From the NCBI GenBank assembly GCA_015057715.1, contig SVDS01000003.1:1-64000 (forward strand): a stretch of 64,000 nt of DNA. Direction: 5' to 3'. Made by a program: the position numbers and the translations under genes. Positions 3,934 to 15,440 of this stretch are shown one piece after another (within the stretch, counting starts at the first letter, position 1; each line of letters opens with the position of its first letter). Below the pieces are notes generated by a model. The model saw nothing but the letters and a program-made list of their open reading frames with translations, did no database searches and was not told the DNA's origin. The stretch comes from Paenibacillaceae bacterium. Its GTDB lineage: Bacteria; Bacillota; Clostridia; Lachnospirales; Lachnospiraceae.

Positions 3934-5223
3934 TTAAAAGGACAATTTCTGGATGTAGTATTGAGTATTAATAATAAACCACATTTGGGTATCAAATCTC
4001 ATAATAGTCCATAGAGATAAACCTTGAAGATCATATTCTGCTACCAGACCGGCTCTTGATTCAAAACTTCTCGCATCATTAAACCACACTAAGTGAAGAA
4101 TCCCATTACTATCCATATAATAGAAAAAAGGTGACTGTGCTGCTTCGTTAAATTGTATTGGTATATTGTTATCTGCTGCAATCTGTATTGCATTATTGTT
4201 TGCTATAGCAGTTGCTTCTGTTGCACCCGGAACATAGGGGAGTGTCCAATCATAACCGAGTGTAGTGATTCCTAAGAATAATAAATCCAGTGGAATAATA
4301 CTGGTTACGTAGGCTAAAAGTTCTCTTAAAACATTAACTGGGAAAATTGAGCTTGGATAACTATAAAATCTGGCCCAATCATAAGAAGCAAATAGAATTC
4401 CATCTACATATCCAGATAATCGTGAATAATCCAACTTTTCAAAGCTGACAATAGGCCCCTGAATATTCATAATCGGCGTAGTGGTGATTAGTACTCTATA
4501 ACCTTCAGAACGAAATATAGCTGAAGCTTTTTTTATGTATTCTACAATACTATTTATGTTATCCGGTGTAATATCTTCGATATACATATTCACTCCGTAA
4601 TAACCCTTTGTTTTTATCATTTGAAGAATATTATCAATAAGACGATCTTGCACAGAAGAGTTATTTAAAATATTCTGAGTTACTTCACGAATAATAGTTC
4701 CTTCTTCCGTAATCGTAGAAACAAACATCATGGGCGCAACACTATAAGATTTAGCCAACTGAATTACATCAGCATCGTCAGCAATAGTAATAATTTCTCC
4801 TTCACTTGTAGCCCTATAATTGAATATAGTCAAATATGTTAAAAAAGGAAGCGTTTTTATTAATATAGATTTATCTATATAGGAAAAAGTATAACCACTA
4901 GTGGCAATTATTCTTGTTTTATTCGATTGATAGCTAATAACTATGGATTCGCCAATGTACAAAATTTCTCTCTCGGAAAGATAGGGATTGTTTCTTAATA
5001 ATTCCATTGGAGTAGTACCATGCTGCTTTGCAATACTCTCCAAAGTGTCGCCTGCCTGAACAACGTAGAGTGTTTCCGGTTGTACAATTACGATGGTTTG
5101 GCCGACTGCTAAATGATCGGGGTTTGTAATTCCATTTTCCAATATTAATCGGTCAACGGGGATTTTATAATACTCTGATATGGAAACGATGGTTTCACCT
5201 GGTTTGACAACGTGTATGATCAT
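3934..5223 (-). CDS. LysM-repeat glycosyl hydrolase family 18, spore cortex-lytic/SleL-YaaH type
   Basis: Two N-terminal LysM motifs (IIHVVKPGETIVSISEYYKIP; YVVQAGDTLESIAKQHG) plus GH18-like domain. ATG at 5223 follows GAGGG; the track start (5235) is an upstream TTG. Confidence 0.88.
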   Translation of the reverse strand: MIIHVVKPGETIVSISEYYKIPVDRLILENGITNPDHLAVGQTIVIVQPETLYVVQAGDTLESIAKQHGTTPMELLRNNPYLSEREILYIGESIVISYQSNKTRIIATSGYTFSYIDKSILIKTLPFLTYLTIFNYRATSEGEIITIADDADVIQLAKSYSVAPMMFVSTITEEGTIIREVTQNILNNSSVQDRLIDNILQMIKTKGYYGVNMYIEDITPDNINSIVEYIKKASAIFRSEGYRVLITTTPIMNIQGPIVSFEKLDYSRLSGYVDGILFASYDWARFYSYPSSIFPVNVLRELLAYVTSIIPLDLLFLGITTLGYDWTLPYVPGATEATAIANNNAIQIAADNNIPIQFNEAAQSPFFYYMDSNGILHLVWFNDARSFESRAGLVAEYDLQGLSLWTIMRFDTQMWFIINTQYYIQKLSF

Positions 5224-5313
5224 GAATTCCCTCAAATGATCTTATTAATTCTATTATATGCTAATGTGTTGGATTTATTGGTATATCCATGCTTTATTAA
5301 GCAAATTGTTACC

Positions 5314-5406
5314 AAACAAAACCACCGGAATCCCCTGCATACACAAGTGATTCCGGTGTTTTGGCTGTTTATAGAAAAATGGAAGTAATGGGGCTCGAAC
5401 CCATGA
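5314..5406. repeat. attL-like 93-bp direct repeat (duplicated tRNA-Val 3' end + terminator)
   Basis: Identical over 93 bp to 15295-15387; includes the 3' 27 nt of tRNA-Val and a CACCGGAATC...GATTCCGGTG inverted repeat. Confidence 0.93.
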
Positions 5407-5440: not shown

Positions 5441-6478
5441 TTACTTTTTATGTTGCATTTCGTGTTGCATTGAGTCAAAATACCCGTTAATTGTATTTGT
5501 GAACTTACGCTTCTGATCATCTAATTCATTGCGGTAGACTGATTTCAGTACGTAATCAGATGCCCATCCCCCTCGACCCATAATATACTGATCAGGAACC
5601 CCTATTGCGTGCATGATACTGGCAGCGTAATGCCTAAGGTCGTGAAAACGAAAATGATTAGGTAGCTTAGCCGATTTCACGGCTCTTTCAAATCTATGTG
5701 ATATTTGATCAGGAGTGGCTTTCACTAATCTACCTGTTATGCCATCAATTCGAGAAATAACAAAATCTGGATATTCTATTGTACGGTATCCAGCGTAAGT
5801 TTTGGGCTGCTTTATATCCCAGGTTTTATTTTCACGAAGGACCATACTCTTATTTACAGTAATATTATTTCCTATTACGTCAGTAGATTCGACGGCGCAT
5901 ATTTCCCCTCTTCTCATGGGACCAAACGCTGCGAGATATACGGCTATTTCAAGCTCTTTGCCTTTTATGTGCGATAGTAGGGTATTGATATCTTGACCCG
6001 TAGGAATGTATAGATCTGGTTTCTTTTTTGCAGGAAGTTCAATAGATAACTCTGCTTTAGGATTGTACATTTTAATTGCCGAGATAACTAATCCCCATGC
6101 ATTTCGAACTGTTTTTGGAGATCTATCCTTTATGAGCGAATTGACCCACTTTTGAAGTTCAGTATTGTCTGGATCCCTTACACTTGATTCTGCAATATAA
6201 TCCAGTAGATTATTCGATATAGACTTATATGCTGTTATGGTGGAAGGTGAGAGGACGGGAGTTTTCAATTCTATATATTCAGACACAGCTTGTTTTATAG
6301 TAATATTTTTAGGCCGCTTAACTTGATCTTTATTCAGAGCATATTGCGCAGCAAGATACTCTGATTCCTTTTTTGTATCAGCAGTAAATGACTCATACCG
6401 TCTTTTGCCATCCAAGTCTTTGTGGCTGTATACTAAGGTACGCCATTGACCTGAAGGGAGCTTCTTTGCCTTTGCCAT
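5441..6478 (-). CDS. phage-type tyrosine recombinase/integrase
   Basis: 345 aa; FGPMRRGEICAV (Arg I), HDLRHYAAS (HxxR), GRGGWAS, SVYRN (Tyr); adjacent to attL. Confidence 0.95.
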   Translation of the reverse strand: MAKAKKLPSGQWRTLVYSHKDLDGKRRYESFTADTKKESEYLAAQYALNKDQVKRPKNITIKQAVSEYIELKTPVLSPSTITAYKSISNNLLDYIAESSVRDPDNTELQKWVNSLIKDRSPKTVRNAWGLVISAIKMYNPKAELSIELPAKKKPDLYIPTGQDINTLLSHIKGKELEIAVYLAAFGPMRRGEICAVESTDVIGNNITVNKSMVLRENKTWDIKQPKTYAGYRTIEYPDFVISRIDGITGRLVKATPDQISHRFERAVKSAKLPNHFRFHDLRHYAASIMHAIGVPDQYIMGRGGWASDYVLKSVYRNELDDQKRKFTNTINGYFDSMQHEMQHKK

Positions 6479-6671
6479 TTTTTATCATTTCCTTTCATCG
6501 TTGAAATATTGCAATCAATTTTGAGTATAAAAAATACGTCCCCTTGCCAGAACGTACCAGAAATGATATAATTCCATTGAAGTGATGGATATATCTTTCC
6601 GGAAATCCGGTAAGAGATAATCTATGTTAAGCCGTTCCGATTGCAGTCGGGGCGGTTTTTAAGTTTATTTG

Positions 6672-7175
6672 CTATTTATATTCCATAAAGACTTTAATTA
6701 TTTCGTCTCGATTTTCTGCTTTATCACACAGAAGCATATATTTATCATTAACTGCGCTTGGTTCGATTTTAGTTCCCATTCCCTGTAAAGTCACATATCC
6801 ATTTTCAATCAAACCCTTGTAACTATCTGATTCTTTTTCATATTCGTAAATTGCCACATCACCGTACTTTGCGCCGCTTATTGCACCCAACATTTCAGCT
6901 GGTACACCTTTAGGTTCTCCTTGAATCATATTGTTTTCTTTTAGGTAGCTGGCTAGATCTTCTAATGAATTTGTAGAAGCAGCCGTCGGTGCTGTTTCCA
7001 AATCTTTTACTTTACTTTCTATGCTTTCGCTCAGATTCTCGACATTTTCTTCCAGTTCATGTGTGGTTTCAACCTGTGCCGGTGCTTGGGTAGCAGTTTC
7101 TACGGAATTTGCAGCACATGCAGATAATAGCAATGTGCTAATAACAAATACCGGGATAGATTTAAATACTTTCAT
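6672..7175 (-). CDS. lipoprotein in lysogeny module (possible superinfection-exclusion or surface protein)
   Basis: MKVFKSIPVFVISTLLLSACAANS lipobox; located between int and repressor. Track ORF starts upstream at 7259; ATG 7175 follows GAAGGATGAG. Confidence 0.7.
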   Translation of the reverse strand: MKVFKSIPVFVISTLLLSACAANSVETATQAPAQVETTHELEENVENLSESIESKVKDLETAPTAASTNSLEDLASYLKENNMIQGEPKGVPAEMLGAISGAKYGDVAIYEYEKESDSYKGLIENGYVTLQGMGTKIEPSAVNDKYMLLCDKAENRDEIIKVFMEYK

Positions 7176-7224
7176 ACTCATCCTTCTTTTCTTTAGTTTT
7201 TTATTAAAAAAGCCATTAGCTATT

Positions 7225-7560
7225 TTAATCCTTTTTCTGCATTTTTTCGATTGTATCAATCAGAGTTTCTAAAGCATCTGGATCAATGCCTAAATCCAGT
7301 AACCTCCTAGCATATTCTAAGTATTTTTTTTCAGTGGCAGCAATTTCTAATTCTTCTTTTTCCGGGGATTCTTTACCGGTCATTAAATAATCCACCGACA
7401 CACCTAATACTACAGCAATTTTTTTCAATTTGTCGCCACTAGGTGCATTTTTATTAAATTTATTAATCGAACTTCTGGCGAATCCCAATTCTTGCTCCAA
7501 TCGATTTATTGAATAACCCTTTGTCTTGGCGACATCTCTTATGCGTTCATATAATCCCAT
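7225..7560 (-). CDS. XRE/HTH family repressor (CI-like, no S24 peptidase domain)
   Basis: 111 aa MGLYERIRDVAKTKGYSINRLEQELGFARSSINKFNKNAPSGDKLKKIAVVLGVSVDYLMTG; divergent from the tail-side genes. Confidence 0.9.
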   Translation of the reverse strand: MGLYERIRDVAKTKGYSINRLEQELGFARSSINKFNKNAPSGDKLKKIAVVLGVSVDYLMTGKESPEKEELEIAATEKKYLEYARRLLDLGIDPDALETLIDTIEKMQKKD

Positions 7561-7572
7561 TTATAATACCTC

Positions 7573-7751
7573 AAAATTTTGCGCAATTAAGCATTGACAT
7601 TCGCAAAATTTTATGTATAATAAAATTATGAGTTGCGCAATATTTTGCGAATGTCATACTTAAGGCATATTTTATTTAATTGATTGTTGGCGCTTTCAAT
7701 TGTAGAATATTTTACGCAAAAAGTCAAGTACTAACCTAAAATTTTGCGTAA
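7573..7751. promoter_or_regulatory. repressor operator array, consensus about AAAATTTTGCG(C/T/A)AA, with embedded promoter TTGACA(7594-7599)-N16-TATAAT(7616-7621)
   Basis: Copies at 7573-7586, 7599-7612 (inverted), 7633-7651 (two half-sites), 7707-7720 and 7738-7751. Confidence 0.75.
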
Positions 7752-7776
7752 TTTTAAAATCATAGGAGGTGAGATC

Positions 7777-7869
7777 TTGCTTTATAGCAATATAAAGGCT
7801 TTATGCGACAAGCAAATGGAGAGGAGATTACAACATAATGGCAGTAGAATACGGAACAATCGGGACTAG
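7777..7869 (+). pseudogene. truncated cro-like XRE N-terminus, probable deletion junction
   Basis: AGGAGGTGAGATC then TTG; LLYSNIKALCDKQMERRLQHNGSRIRNNRD*: the first ~13 aa resemble the start of XRE regulators, then run out of frame into the tail gene. Confidence 0.55.
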
Positions 7870-8806
7870 ACCCAGGGGCAGTTGGGATCCTGATACGAAA
7901 TATGATTTATTAAACTTAGTAAGCTACGATGGCAGTAGCTATGTAGCCCATACGGATCCGCCTAAGGGTAGTTTACCTACTGATATCAATTATTGGCAAA
8001 CGTCAGCCCAGGGAACCAGTAAGGCCACAGCAAATAGTGTCGGAACGGTAAAACCAGACGGAACAACAACGGAGGTAAGCGCTGACGGTAGTTTAAGCGC
8101 AAAGACAGCTACACAGAGCTCGCTGGGGTTGGTAAAAGGCAGTAATGGGATCAAGGTGGATACAGATGGCAGTATTGATGTAAATACGCTCTTCACACAG
8201 GCTACAGAGTTGGCTAATATCATAGCGGAGGAAGCGATTTCTTCTGTGCTTGGAAAGATATCCAAGTCCATAGCGGTGACGATGGGATTAAATGAAAATG
8301 CCCTGCTCAAGAATATGTTGACCAATATAGATGCAAATGACAATACTAAGATTAACACAGCAGCGTTTGTACATACTCTTTACGAACGGATCGGCATGGC
8401 TACGGAGCTGACAGCAGGGGAGAATTTAACGGCTGCGGCTAATGCGCTAAATAGCAATTTAACAACTGTAAGCAATAGTGTAAATAATATGTCAACTGGT
8501 CAATGTACCGCATGGAATGGTACAACATTTGAAATTAACTATGCTTATAAAATCGGAAAAATCGCAGTTATAAGTGTACAAGGAAACAATGCACAGTTGT
8601 CTACAAATAATGGTTTTGCTTTATTTACTGTGCCATGGACTCCAAGCCATAATTTAGGGCTGAATGCCATGGTTAGAAATCCGAGCACTGGGAATTACAT
8701 ACCTGCGCCATTTCAGCTAAAAACGGCAGGAATCGCAGTGGAGAACGAAAATGCAAATACTGGATATACTTGGTTTAGGGTAAATTTTGTTTATTTTACG
8801 GCATAA
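7838..8806 (+). CDS. phage tail fibre / tail-side structural protein
   Basis: 322 aa; MAVEYGTIGTRPRGSWDPDTKYDLLNLVSYDGSSYVAHTDPPKG...YW carbohydrate-binding-like start, Ser/Thr/Asn-rich shaft, C-terminal tip domain. Confidence 0.75.
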   Translation: MAVEYGTIGTRPRGSWDPDTKYDLLNLVSYDGSSYVAHTDPPKGSLPTDINYWQTSAQGTSKATANSVGTVKPDGTTTEVSADGSLSAKTATQSSLGLVKGSNGIKVDTDGSIDVNTLFTQATELANIIAEEAISSVLGKISKSIAVTMGLNENALLKNMLTNIDANDNTKINTAAFVHTLYERIGMATELTAGENLTAAANALNSNLTTVSNSVNNMSTGQCTAWNGTTFEINYAYKIGKIAVISVQGNNAQLSTNNGFALFTVPWTPSHNLGLNAMVRNPSTGNYIPAPFQLKTAGIAVENENANTGYTWFRVNFVYFTA

Positions 8807-8809
8807 ATA

Positions 8810-9041
8810 ATCATTTAACATCATTAATCGGTAATGTAAACAATATATCTAGTGGTCAATGCACTGCATGGAATGACACGGTATTGAATCTAATCATGTT
8901 TATAAAATTGGTAAAATAGCAATTGCAACCGTTCAGGGAACAAATTCTCACATATCCAGCACACAAACCTCTATATTTACATTGCCATGGTTACCAAGCA
9001 ATAACTTACTTATAAATGGCATACAACCAATGGAGATCTAA
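8810..9041 (+). pseudogene. decayed duplicate of tail-fibre C-terminal (tip) domain
   Basis: SLIGNVNNISSGQCTAWNDT / frameshift / ESNHVYKIGKIAIATVQGTNSHISSTQTSIFTLPWLPSNNLLINGIQPMEI*, parallel to SNSVNNMSTGQCTAWNGT...YAYKIGKIAVISVQGNNAQLS...FTVPWTPSHNLGLNAM of the upstream CDS. Confidence 0.85.
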
Positions 9042-9086
9042 ATATAACACGGCTCCTATCACACAATATTTTTACCGCCATTATCC

Positions 9087-10184
9087 CTATATCAATTTAT
9101 TTAATAATGGTAGTTTTTTCATAACAAGTGTAATTGATGAACAAATTAAAAGAATACATGACACCCAAATAAGACACGCTAAAATACTAGGTAGGTGCAA
9201 TACTGTTTTAAGAATATCAAGGATTGAGCGTGTTTGTTCTCTGACTATATTTTCAATTAGCATAACTCCTAACGTTGTGTTTCCTACTATAATTATTAGT
9301 TTATTCAGGCACATCGGCACACATAAACTTTCAAAACAATATTTTATTAAATAGAATATTGTTATACTTGGTATCAAAATCAGTGAATTATAAAAGGTTT
9401 GCATCGTTTGTTCTTGCAGAACCCCCGTAATATTGGCTTGGTACTGCGTCATTAAACAGCTAACTATTATACTGATAATACTAAAAAAGATAAGTAGAAA
9501 TGCATTTTTTTTATTATAATACTCAGAACTAATGCGATTTTCAATAAAGTAGCCTACAAGTGGATAGACAATATATCCATTTGTTGCTATTAGGGGTGAA
9601 AAATCAGGAACGAAATAATTTTTACCATTCCAAATCAAAAATTGGGTAATAGGTAATAACCCCAGAAATATAATATTGAGTGACATTAAATACACGTATT
9701 CTTTGTTGCTAGTATTAACAGCGATTTTTCTTAAAAATGGCATCATAAGTATTAGTGCTGCAAATGAATATAAATACCAATAAGTGCCTGCCATACTAGT
9801 TGTAGTAACTGCTTTTATAAAAATTAAAATCGAAAAGGTGTATTTATGATCAAGGATAATTCTATACGCAAACTGTAAAAAAGAAAATAAAAGTATAATG
9901 ACCCAAAATCTCAATTCTCTTTTTTTTAATACTTTTGTCAATGGCTCCTCTTTTGCAAGCAATAAACTTCCAGAAATCATCCAAAATATGGGGACTGCTG
10001 TTTTACATAAGATAGATAGAGACATATAATGCCAATAGAGAGGAGAACTTTGCCTAATAGTAAAGAGGGAAAACCCTTCACTACCAGTGTGGTTAAATAT
10101 GATAAAAAAGATTGCTATAATACGAAGCGCTTCTAAATAAACCTTTTTAGCAACAGGATTTTCAGTTAATTGTTTATCGTTCAT
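9087..10184 (-). CDS. acyltransferase family 3 membrane protein (possible O-acetyltransferase, lysogenic-conversion moron)
   Basis: 365 aa multi-TM; YLEALRIIAIFFIIFNHTG (conserved R...H), FWMISGSLLL. Confidence 0.85.
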   Translation of the reverse strand: MNDKQLTENPVAKKVYLEALRIIAIFFIIFNHTGSEGFSLFTIRQSSPLYWHYMSLSILCKTAVPIFWMISGSLLLAKEEPLTKVLKKRELRFWVIILLFSFLQFAYRIILDHKYTFSILIFIKAVTTTSMAGTYWYLYSFAALILMMPFLRKIAVNTSNKEYVYLMSLNIIFLGLLPITQFLIWNGKNYFVPDFSPLIATNGYIVYPLVGYFIENRISSEYYNKKNAFLLIFFSIISIIVSCLMTQYQANITGVLQEQTMQTFYNSLILIPSITIFYLIKYCFESLCVPMCLNKLIIIVGNTTLGVMLIENIVREQTRSILDILKTVLHLPSILACLIWVSCILLICSSITLVMKKLPLLNKLI

Positions 10185-10893: not shown

Positions 10894-11316
10894 ATGAATA
10901 TAGAAAAAATAAAGTTTGGGGATCAGCCTTTTTATCTGGTCCCTGACGGGGTAAAACTGGGAGAAGCTGGGGGTACAATTACCTTCCAGAAAGGAACGGA
11001 TTCCTTTGATCAAATTAAGGCGATTCTAAAAGCGAACCATGAAATCACGCAGATTAATTTATCCGATAAACAGGACTGGTCACGTAACGATTTGGTCTAT
11101 GCGGGAAGGCTGGCAGAGCAATCTGATTATGTGATCGGTAAGGATGAGGACGGAGTAACGGATATCAAAGAGGATGTAATGATTGCCTATTTTAAAACTC
11201 CTGATCTGAATGATCGGGTAGCAGCTCTGGAAGCGGAGAATGCCAATATTAAGAAAGATAATGAATCCTTAAAAGCAACCGTAGACACGCTGGTTTTATC
11301 AAATTTGGAGGTGTAA
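10894..11316 (+). CDS. phage hypothetical protein with C-terminal coiled coil
   Basis: 140 aa MNIEKIKFGDQPFYLVPDGVKLGEAGG...RVAALEAENANIKKDNESLKATVDTL; AGAAAGGAATTATTTT upstream. Confidence 0.65.
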   Translation: MNIEKIKFGDQPFYLVPDGVKLGEAGGTITFQKGTDSFDQIKAILKANHEITQINLSDKQDWSRNDLVYAGRLAEQSDYVIGKDEDGVTDIKEDVMIAYFKTPDLNDRVAALEAENANIKKDNESLKATVDTLVLSNLEV

Positions 11317-11318
11317 GC

Positions 11319-11462
11319 ATGTTTGATACATTAATGAGACTATACGCAGGCGGGAAAGGACCTCTTACGGTTGCTATGCTGGCCAATGCGGTTATAAAGG
11401 GTTGGATCACTGATGTAGAGAAACAAGAGGTCATGGCAACTAAAGAATATGAGAAAGAGTGA
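11319..11462 (+). CDS. XkdX-like small phage protein
   Basis: Not in ORF track; MFDTLMRLYAGGKGPLTVAMLANAVIKGWITDVEKQEVMATKEYEKE*; TTGGAGGTG RBS. Confidence 0.75.
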   Translation: MFDTLMRLYAGGKGPLTVAMLANAVIKGWITDVEKQEVMATKEYEKE

Positions 11463-11467
11463 GGATA

Positions 11468-11902
11468 ATGAAAATGGATAGAATTACAGAACTGCTTGCC
11501 CTGGCATGGGGAAGCCCGATTATTAAACTGGTTATTTTAGCAGTAGTAATGGATACCTGCTTCGGCTGCATCAGAGCGATTAAGGAGCATGAGTTTAACA
11601 GCTGTTTCGGCATTGACGGTGCGATACGGAAGATCTCCATGGTAGCTTCCTTGGCGTTTCTACTGATACTTGATCGAATTGTACATCTAAACCTGATCGG
11701 CTTCATTCCGGAAGCGATCCGGTCATATTTGCCGGTTAATGCCATTGGAGTGGCGGAGTTCTTCGGACTTCTGTACATAGCGTATGAGCTTGTGAGTATT
11801 CTTAAAAACATGACTCTGTGCGGTCTGCCGGTTAAGCGGTTGTGGGAGACTGTGAAGAAATTTCTTACACAGTACACGGACGAGCTGCCGGATAACACTT
11901 AA
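11468..11902 (+). CDS. phage holin family protein (Cph1/toxin-secretion holin type)
   Basis: MKMDRITELLALAWGSPIIKLVILAVVMDTCFGCIRAIKEHEFNSCFGIDGAIRKI...; position between XkdX and endolysin. Confidence 0.88.
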   Translation: MKMDRITELLALAWGSPIIKLVILAVVMDTCFGCIRAIKEHEFNSCFGIDGAIRKISMVASLAFLLILDRIVHLNLIGFIPEAIRSYLPVNAIGVAEFFGLLYIAYELVSILKNMTLCGLPVKRLWETVKKFLTQYTDELPDNT

Positions 11903-11905
11903 TCT

Positions 11906-11972
11906 GTTGCGACCGTCGCAACGGTTGTAATGTCACAACTTTACGGACCTGGGATTATCCTGGGTCCTTTTT
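11906..11972 (+). promoter_or_regulatory. three consecutive RNA hairpins between holin and endolysin; the third resembles a terminator
   Basis: GTTGCGAccgTCGCAAC (11906-11922); GTTGTaatgtcACAAC (11924-11939); GGACCTGGGAttaTCCTGGGTCC (11945-11967) followed by TTTTT. Confidence 0.65.
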
Positions 11973-13001: not shown

Positions 13002-14480
13002 ATGAGTAAGAGAACGGTACAAAGATTGGCAATGAGTATTTGCTTTATTCTTTGTGTAATGACTTGTGGGCATATCACTGTTTTTGCTGATGAAGTAAAA
13101 CCTGTACATGAGTATAATTTCGATAGTGATAAAGATGGGATTGTCTATGATTCAATCAAAGAAGGAGCAATGAACAGTAGTATTAAGAGTGATTATTTTA
13201 TTCCTGGCTATAACGGAGAGGGAAAGGCAAGGCATTTTGATAAGGACAATAAGGAATCTATAGGATTTCCAGGAAGTGTTATTCCAAGAGGTGATAAATC
13301 AATAAGATTTAAATTTAGAAAAGAGGCCTCATCAATTACAACAACTACTTATGACATCATCATGTCTACACACGCCTATAATTCTCGACCATTTTATATA
13401 AGTATTGTTGGAAATAATAGTAGTATTGAAGCAGGGTGTATTAATATTAATATTAATGGTAGTGGTGGACTTAAATCGCCTACAAGTATTTGTGATGGAA
13501 CGTGGCATGATATTTTATTTATTTGGAGTGAAAGTTCAAATTCAATGAAATTATATGTAGATGATATGACAGCACCAGTTGATACTTTTACCTTTAAAAC
13601 AAGAATAGATTTTGCTGCGTCAGGGTTTTATATAGGAGGATGTTATGATTGGTCGTATGGTACAGAACTATTTACAGGAGATTTAGATAATATTCAAATC
13701 TACAATAAAGCAATAATACCAGAGACCTCAATTCCTGTTATATCATCTAATTTAGAAGCATTAGGTGGTGATTCCAAAATAGATTTAACCTGGGACGCAG
13801 TAGATAAAGCTACAAGCTACATCGTAAAGCGCTCCACGACTGCAGGTGGCCCATATGAAACAATATCAACCGATGTAGCAGGTACTACCTGTACCGATAC
13901 TAATGTTACTAATGGAACTACATACTATTATATTGTAACTGCAATCGTTGATGGCAGAGAAAGTGGTAATTCTAATGAAGCCTCGGCTATTCCAGAGGCA
14001 TCTCAAACACCTCCTACAACTGAAGCTAAATTAAAAGTGGTATTAGAGGTTGCCGAATCACTCCGATTAAGTGTAGATGATGATATAAATGTAAATACAC
14101 AAATGTCCTGGACTTCTTCAGAACCAACTGTTGCCACAGTAAATGAAAAAGGAATTGTGACAGCTCTAGCACCCGGTAACACAGTCATAACAGTTAAAAG
14201 TGCGGACGGATCCTATACAGATTATATAAATGTATTAGTTGTAGAGAACGCAGACGATTACAGGCTTGCAATTGATTTAAAAATTGGAGAGACAGCCAGA
14301 TTGACAGCAGATGATTTTACTAACACAGCAAATATCACATGGGCTCCTATGGATTCATCAATTGCCAATGTAACTACAAAAGGAAAAGTCACTGCACTGA
14401 GCAAAGGATTGGTTTTAATCAGTGCAAAGGATGCAGACGGAAATATCATTGGCCGTGTATATGTAAGAGTAAGAGAATAG
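13002..14480 (+). CDS. secreted protein with LamG/concanavalin-like, FN3 and two Big2-like domains
   Basis: Signal peptide MSKRTVQRLAMSICFILCVMTCGHITVFA; FN3 IDLTWDAVDKATSYIVKRSTTAGGPYETI; Big2 WTSSEPTVATVNEKGIVTALAPGNTVITVKSADGS, then a second copy. Confidence 0.85.
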   Translation: MSKRTVQRLAMSICFILCVMTCGHITVFADEVKPVHEYNFDSDKDGIVYDSIKEGAMNSSIKSDYFIPGYNGEGKARHFDKDNKESIGFPGSVIPRGDKSIRFKFRKEASSITTTTYDIIMSTHAYNSRPFYISIVGNNSSIEAGCINININGSGGLKSPTSICDGTWHDILFIWSESSNSMKLYVDDMTAPVDTFTFKTRIDFAASGFYIGGCYDWSYGTELFTGDLDNIQIYNKAIIPETSIPVISSNLEALGGDSKIDLTWDAVDKATSYIVKRSTTAGGPYETISTDVAGTTCTDTNVTNGTTYYYIVTAIVDGRESGNSNEASAIPEASQTPPTTEAKLKVVLEVAESLRLSVDDDINVNTQMSWTSSEPTVATVNEKGIVTALAPGNTVITVKSADGSYTDYINVLVVENADDYRLAIDLKIGETARLTADDFTNTANITWAPMDSSIANVTTKGKVTALSKGLVLISAKDADGNIIGRVYVRVRE

Positions 14481-15294: not shown

Positions 15295-15387
15295 AAACAA
15301 AACCACCGGAATCCCCTGCATACACAAGTGATTCCGGTGTTTTGGCTGTTTATAGAAAAATGGAAGTAATGGGGCTCGAACCCATGA
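15295..15387. repeat. attR-like 93-bp direct repeat overlapping the tRNA-Val 3' end
   Basis: Identical to 5314-5406. Confidence 0.93.
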
Positions 15388-15434
15388 CCTTTCGCGTGTG
15401 AGGCGAACGCTCATCCCGGCTGAGCTATACTTCC
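15361..15434 (-). tRNA. tRNA-Val (anticodon CAC)
   Basis: GGAAGTA...TACTTCC acceptor stem; anticodon arm TTCGC-CTCACAC-GCGAA; GGGTTCGAGCCCC T-arm. Confidence 0.93.
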
Positions 15435-15440
15435 ATTTCG

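Follow-up and report, generated by a model that had tools for sequence, protein, structure and literature searches.

A cro stub joined to a tail fibre gene: probable scar of one large deletion in an integrated prophage

In the window, by which we mean the whole 64,000-nucleotide stretch of DNA that was analysed, a lysogeny repressor and its promoters stand directly before a phage tail fibre gene, and between them lies an open reading frame of 30 residues. What brought an early regulatory region up against a structural gene? The original prediction was that a deletion had removed everything from inside cro to just upstream of the tail gene, and the coordinates that it gave prove exact when checked against the sequence, which has the ribosome-binding site (AGGAGGTGA) at 7764-7772, the TTG start codon at 7777-7779 and the 30-residue frame at 7777-7869.

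A truncated cro gene and the end of a tail gene meet at one base

The features at and around the junction are the following.

7225-7560, minus strand: CI-like XRE repressor, 111 residues, without a peptidase domain (Pfam HTH_19, 1e-7, and HTH_3, 2e-7; PHROG 8, 1e-17)
7594-7621, plus strand: early (PR-like) promoter, TTGACA-16-TATAAT, 12/12 positions of the consensus
7699-7727, minus strand: repressor promoter, TTGACT-17-TACAAT, face to face with the early promoter
7777-7815, plus strand: first 13 codons of cro (LLYSNIKALCDKQ), preceded by its ribosome-binding site
7777-7869, plus strand: 30-residue frame, LLYSNIKALCDKQMERRLQHNGSRIRNNRD*, out of frame with the tail gene and almost certainly a chimera from the fusion
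7816, no strand: putative deletion junction, at which homology to the left stops and homology to the right starts
7817-7838, plus strand: last codons (GEEITT*) of an otherwise deleted tail gene, by alignment with relatives; also the fibre ribosome-binding site
7838-8806, plus strand: tail fibre gene, 322 residues (PHROG tail fiber, 7e-5)

To the left of the junction, the prophage in the complete genome G306 aligns with window positions 7560-7816 at 82% (E = 2e-65), and the repressor-operator-cro DNA of two further relatives, L012 and L013, is 82% and 79% identical, respectively. Both boxes of the early promoter are identical in eight relatives, and operator repeats lie over the two opposed promoters. 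At the same place, all of the relatives aligned (8/8) have a Cro-type gene of full length, about 60-75 codons. The G306 phage encodes a full Cro of 65 residues (LLYDNIKALCDKQNIPISQLERRLEFP...); this protein and that of L013 open with LLYDNIKALCDKQ, identical to the window at 12 of 13 residues, and then continue NIPISQLERRLEFPRSSICKWDENEPSVWRV..., which bears out the earlier reading of the short frame as the N-terminus of a Cro-like regulator. The stub has the same position relative to the same promoters and operators as cro in the relatives, with the same spacing from the ribosome-binding site, and the window departs from their cro after CAA (codon 13) and one further A.

To the right, window DNA from 7816 is 78% identical to G322 and 74% identical to both G308 and G309, and the first 187 residues of the fibre protein are 77-81% identical to those of intact prophages. 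In the relatives examined, a tail gene of 371-373 residues stands directly before the fibre gene and ends FYGEEIT.* or in a close variant; in six congeneric prophages this upstream gene is intact right before the fibre. The window retains GGA GAG GAG ATT ACA ACA TAA, its last six codons and stop, and in the window and the aligned relatives alike the stop overlaps the fibre start as TAATG. The fibre ATG at 7838 is preceded by GGAGAGGAG, and the ribosome-binding site of the fibre gene is the 3' end of the lost tail gene. Both genes at the junction are thus cut, cro to 13 of 65 codons and the tail gene to the last six of its 371-373. Just past the fibre stop, at 8810-9085 on the plus strand, the fibre tip occurs once more with a frameshift (..SSGQCTAWND.. 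versus STGQCTAWNG..), a copy that we read as a decayed alternative tip.

The breakpoint, predicted near 7812-7825, is placed at A7816 by alignment with these relatives. Homology on the left runs to 7816 in G306, to 7815 in L013 and to 7807 in L012, and homology on the right begins at 7816 in G322, G308 and G309 and at 7815 in the viral contig L010. The two halves, each intact in relatives, abut at a single base, as expected of a deletion that runs from inside cro to just before the tail gene. Moreover, A7816 fits both parental sides, giving one nucleotide of shared sequence at a join where no repeat is visible, which would suggest end-joining or another form of illegitimate recombination rather than homologous or site-specific exchange. 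An in-frame 18-nt deletion inside cro was considered as well, comparing QMERRLQ in the stub with QLERRLE in the L013 Cro, and was ruled out; DNA from 7816 on fits the 3' end of the tail gene far better than cro, with 26/29 bases matching that of L010 by eye.

The original prediction had named two observations as evidence against a deletion, a full-length homologue of the 30-residue frame and an intact phage with the repressor next to the fibre gene. No such homologue was found, the junction pattern having 0 matches in IMG/VR viral contigs and in the genome contigs of the GTDB species set, in which each species is represented by one genome. No such phage was found either, and the repressor-bearing viral loci do not have this fibre gene in their flanks. 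Both sides of the junction occur together in 0/24 congeners, the order from repressor to fibre has no second copy in these 24 or in 298 genomes of the family, and GenBank phages gave no match at the DNA level.

Limits of the element and the DNA that is missing

The junction lies inside a prophage remnant of 9,981 bp, bounded by two perfect 93-bp direct att repeats at tRNA-Val, whose other features are given here.

5314-5406, no strand: left att repeat, 93 bp, 100% identical to the right copy
5441-6478, minus strand: tyrosine integrase, 345 residues, reading frame intact (Pfam Phage_integrase, 8e-11)
6573-6664, plus strand: candidate structured small RNA, roughly 90 nt, between the integrase and the lysogeny genes (promoter 6544-6572, terminator 6629-6658)
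6672-7181, minus strand: small lipoprotein gene of the lysogeny arm (listed frame 6672-7259; ATG at 7181; lipobox LLLSAC)
9087-10184, minus strand: cargo gene of the acyltransferase 3 family (Pfam, 6e-20)
10894-11316, plus strand: conserved right-arm gene, 140 residues, 78-80% identical to G322, G319 and G311
11459-11902, plus strand: holin-like gene for a membrane protein, so called from sequence character and position before the endolysin; 95% identical in L008
11991-12755, plus strand: endolysin, amidase_2 with choline-binding repeats (Pfam, 5e-27; PHROG, 1e-40)
13002-14480, plus strand: LamG/Big2 secreted protein, cargo that the G308 prophage also carries at this position
15295-15387, no strand: right att repeat, 93 bp, overlapping the 3' part of tRNA-Val (15360-15435, minus strand)

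Every gene that remains has an open frame. G312 and G319 have nothing inserted at this chromosomal site, their flanks being joined across one uninterrupted att copy. In the close relative G313 the tRNA-Val site holds another phage (L130, G313:C185, 3607-9718), whose integrase is 55% identical and which also has the small RNA. Among named genomes the relatives are mostly Lacrimispora, and the host genome therefore belongs to this genus or is very close to it. A LysM-GH18 gene lies beside the left att copy (3934-5235, minus strand). The idea that it is cargo of a second phage in tandem was ruled out; it belongs to a multi-copy family of the genus and directly adjoins this tRNA-Val in G312 and G319, where the site is empty. 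The G322 and G306 prophages directly adjoin other LysM-GH18 copies, 90-93% identical (L055, L060), and genes of this kind may mark favoured insertion regions.

Within the element, the lipoprotein gene matches no family in Pfam or PHROGs; G308 has a lipoprotein-like frame at the equivalent position, between repressor and integrase, and from its place the protein may serve in superinfection exclusion. For the holin-like gene, no match to a holin family was obtained. Between it and the endolysin gene, a 10-bp terminator-like hairpin with a T-run (11945-11967, plus strand) could attenuate endolysin expression, and the endolysin frame of L008, whose start matches at the protein level, suggests that the DNA of this hairpin is conserved there.

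What the remnant lacks can be read from intact relatives. In the G306 prophage, genes for SSB, terminase, portal, major head and tape-measure proteins lie between cro and the right arm, and in the window packaging, head, tape-measure and replication genes are absent between 7816 and the fibre. In G308 the distance from cro (contig position 79,446) to the fibre (about 111,025) is about 31 kb, and by analogy we estimate a loss of about 31 kb that would have included replication, packaging and head genes and most of the tail. The size is an analogy because no single prophage with both exact parental arms was found, the left arm fitting one set of relatives and the right arm another. Arms that match different relatives are usual in mosaic phages.

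Taken together, these data make it almost certain that one large deletion inside an integrated siphovirus-type prophage left this feature as its scar. The endpoints lie after codon 13 of cro and within the final codons of the tail gene just upstream of the fibre, and they were joined with one shared base, as in illegitimate recombination. The loss would have followed integration, fusing the lysogeny arm (integrase, small RNA, lipoprotein, CI-like repressor, operators and promoters) to a right arm that keeps the fibre, cargo, holin-like gene, endolysin and LamG protein, with the att sites intact; it is possible that the arms came from two different phages. The locus has the marks of a deletion-derived remnant, namely att bounds around a site that is empty in relatives, missing essential modules, and truncated genes on both sides of the join. 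From its gene content the element is predicted to be unable to make phage particles.

Three other origins have to be weighed. An assembly artefact, with the left arm of one prophage joined to the right arm of another, might be suspected in a 5.4-Mb assembly of 283 contigs with 4.4% estimated contamination, in which the two arms match different relatives. The window, however, opens a contig of 93.5 kb and the join lies inside it; assemblers seldom bridge a join with a one-base overlap and no repeat, and the two identical att copies at the ends of the element fit one integration event. Moreover, a misjoin of two prophages should have left tail genes elsewhere in the assembly, but a search of the whole assembly finds neither the upstream tail gene nor another conserved tail gene anywhere else, although the former as query has matches in 10 of the 24 congeners. 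We therefore consider an artefact very improbable.

A naturally compact element that has lost nothing and has this gene order as its normal one, be it a satellite or a module of fibre and lysis genes under repressor control, would account for the open frames and for the intact integrase and att sites. It is equally hard to credit, given that each of the two genes at the junction is visibly shorter than its full-length homologues, that the order is unseen again in the congeners, family genomes and (as the junction pattern) viral and genome collections described above, and that the Pfam and PHROG families searched revealed no gene for replication or packaging interference. The 30-residue frame is short enough to be an ordinary leader whose 13-codon likeness to Cro is coincidental, but agreement at 12 of 13 residues with the same ribosome-binding site spacing as Cro, and nucleotide homology that runs across the whole regulatory region, through promoters and operators and into the frame up to 7816, leave this reading with next to no probability, and chance likeness was ruled out on that ground.

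Regulation of the remnant and the RNA beside its integrase

With the repressor present, the early promoter of the deletion-derived remnant should still be held off. Were repression lifted, the fibre gene would be read from that promoter, and no terminator-like site was found between the two. The original prediction had placed the tail and lysis genes together under the former early promoter. For the fibre this stands by position, but the lysis genes are 3.6 kb farther downstream, beyond the acyltransferase gene on the opposite strand, and their control by this promoter is for that reason less certain. It is plausible that the old early promoter would drive the fibre and lysis genes.

An ImmA-type protease gene, which most relatives carry, G306, G308, L011 and L013 among them, is absent beside the repressor. 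A second loss need not be assumed to explain this; L015, whose repressor has the same C-terminus, is also without it. With neither Cro, which would oppose the repressor, nor an ImmA-type protease gene present, the repressed state is probably locked and induction of the remnant probably rare. If the element has a present role, this is most likely immunity to phages with the same repressor and operators. It is improbable that the fusion was kept because it was useful in itself, as a repressor-controlled operon that expresses fibre and lysis genes from the early promoter and combines immunity with a regulated lysis or cell-wall module. The locus documents the disabling of a prophage at single-base resolution, one deletion having taken the repressor antagonist and nearly all virion genes, and with the immunity, integration and lysis genes left in place it offers a clean test case for the retention of remnants through immunity.

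The RNA may matter more than the scar. It is encoded immediately before the integrase gene and in divergent orientation to it, in a region (6519-6670, the 150 bp upstream of the integrase) that is more conserved than the surrounding genes, with 88% identity to G306, and that folds well (z = -4.3). An alignment of 33 relatives has three helices, in which 14 pairs are changed on both sides, and gives a covariation score of 0.349, whereas shuffles give 0.173 and slid partners no more than 0.104; because the structure guided the fitting of the alignment, these counts lean towards it. Within the genus the RNA is present in 18 of 25 genomes, and elsewhere in the family in 6 of the 249 genomes drawn; in nearly all loci examined it adjoins a tyrosine integrase or a frame read by eye as a serine recombinase. 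Its own genome has three copies, the further two in other integrated elements (C55:15844-15944 and C256:37745-37848; L142, L144); in the C256 element a CI/Cro-like pair lies about 1.7 kb from the RNA. Rfam gave no match at E ≤ 1, and we regard the sequence as a candidate for a new structured small RNA. In Streptococcus pyogenes, small RNAs upstream of prophage integrases have been reported and proposed to silence the integrase during lysogeny (PMC6431027), and by likeness of position the RNA at 6573-6664 possibly works in the same way.

Comparison with known systems

In the literature searched, we found no paper on these prophages. Intact Lacrimispora prophages have a homologous lysogeny arm (G306) or right arm (G308, G311 and G322, the last being L. 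xylanisolvens ASCUSBR21) in the same order, but they retain cro together with the early genes and those for packaging, head and tail, and exceed the remnant by roughly 31-33 kb. The control region resembles the divergent CI/Cro switches of Gram-positive temperate phages in its short HTH repressor, divergent cro, operator repeats and face-to-face promoters, and differs from them in that cro ends at codon 13, so that the repressor has lost its antagonist and no functional divergent cro stands beside it. Phage satellites of the PICI type carry their own replication module and helper-packaging genes, neither of which was recognised among the main frames with Pfam and PHROGs, and in place of the complete tail gene set that accompanies lysis genes in a tailocin the element has the fibre gene and six codons of another tail gene.

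The closest parallel is provided by cryptic or 'grounded' prophages and by remnants that arose through deletion, for which immunity to related phages has been reviewed as the most likely benefit to the host (PMC6379469). Like them, the remnant is integrated, non-productive as judged from its genes, stripped of internal modules and still in possession of its repressor. Unlike them, it appears to have an intact integrase and both att sites, having been disabled by loss of genes and not by loss of excision. Its fate is an ordinary one for a prophage, with the difference that the scar between cro and the tail gene is here resolved to a single base.
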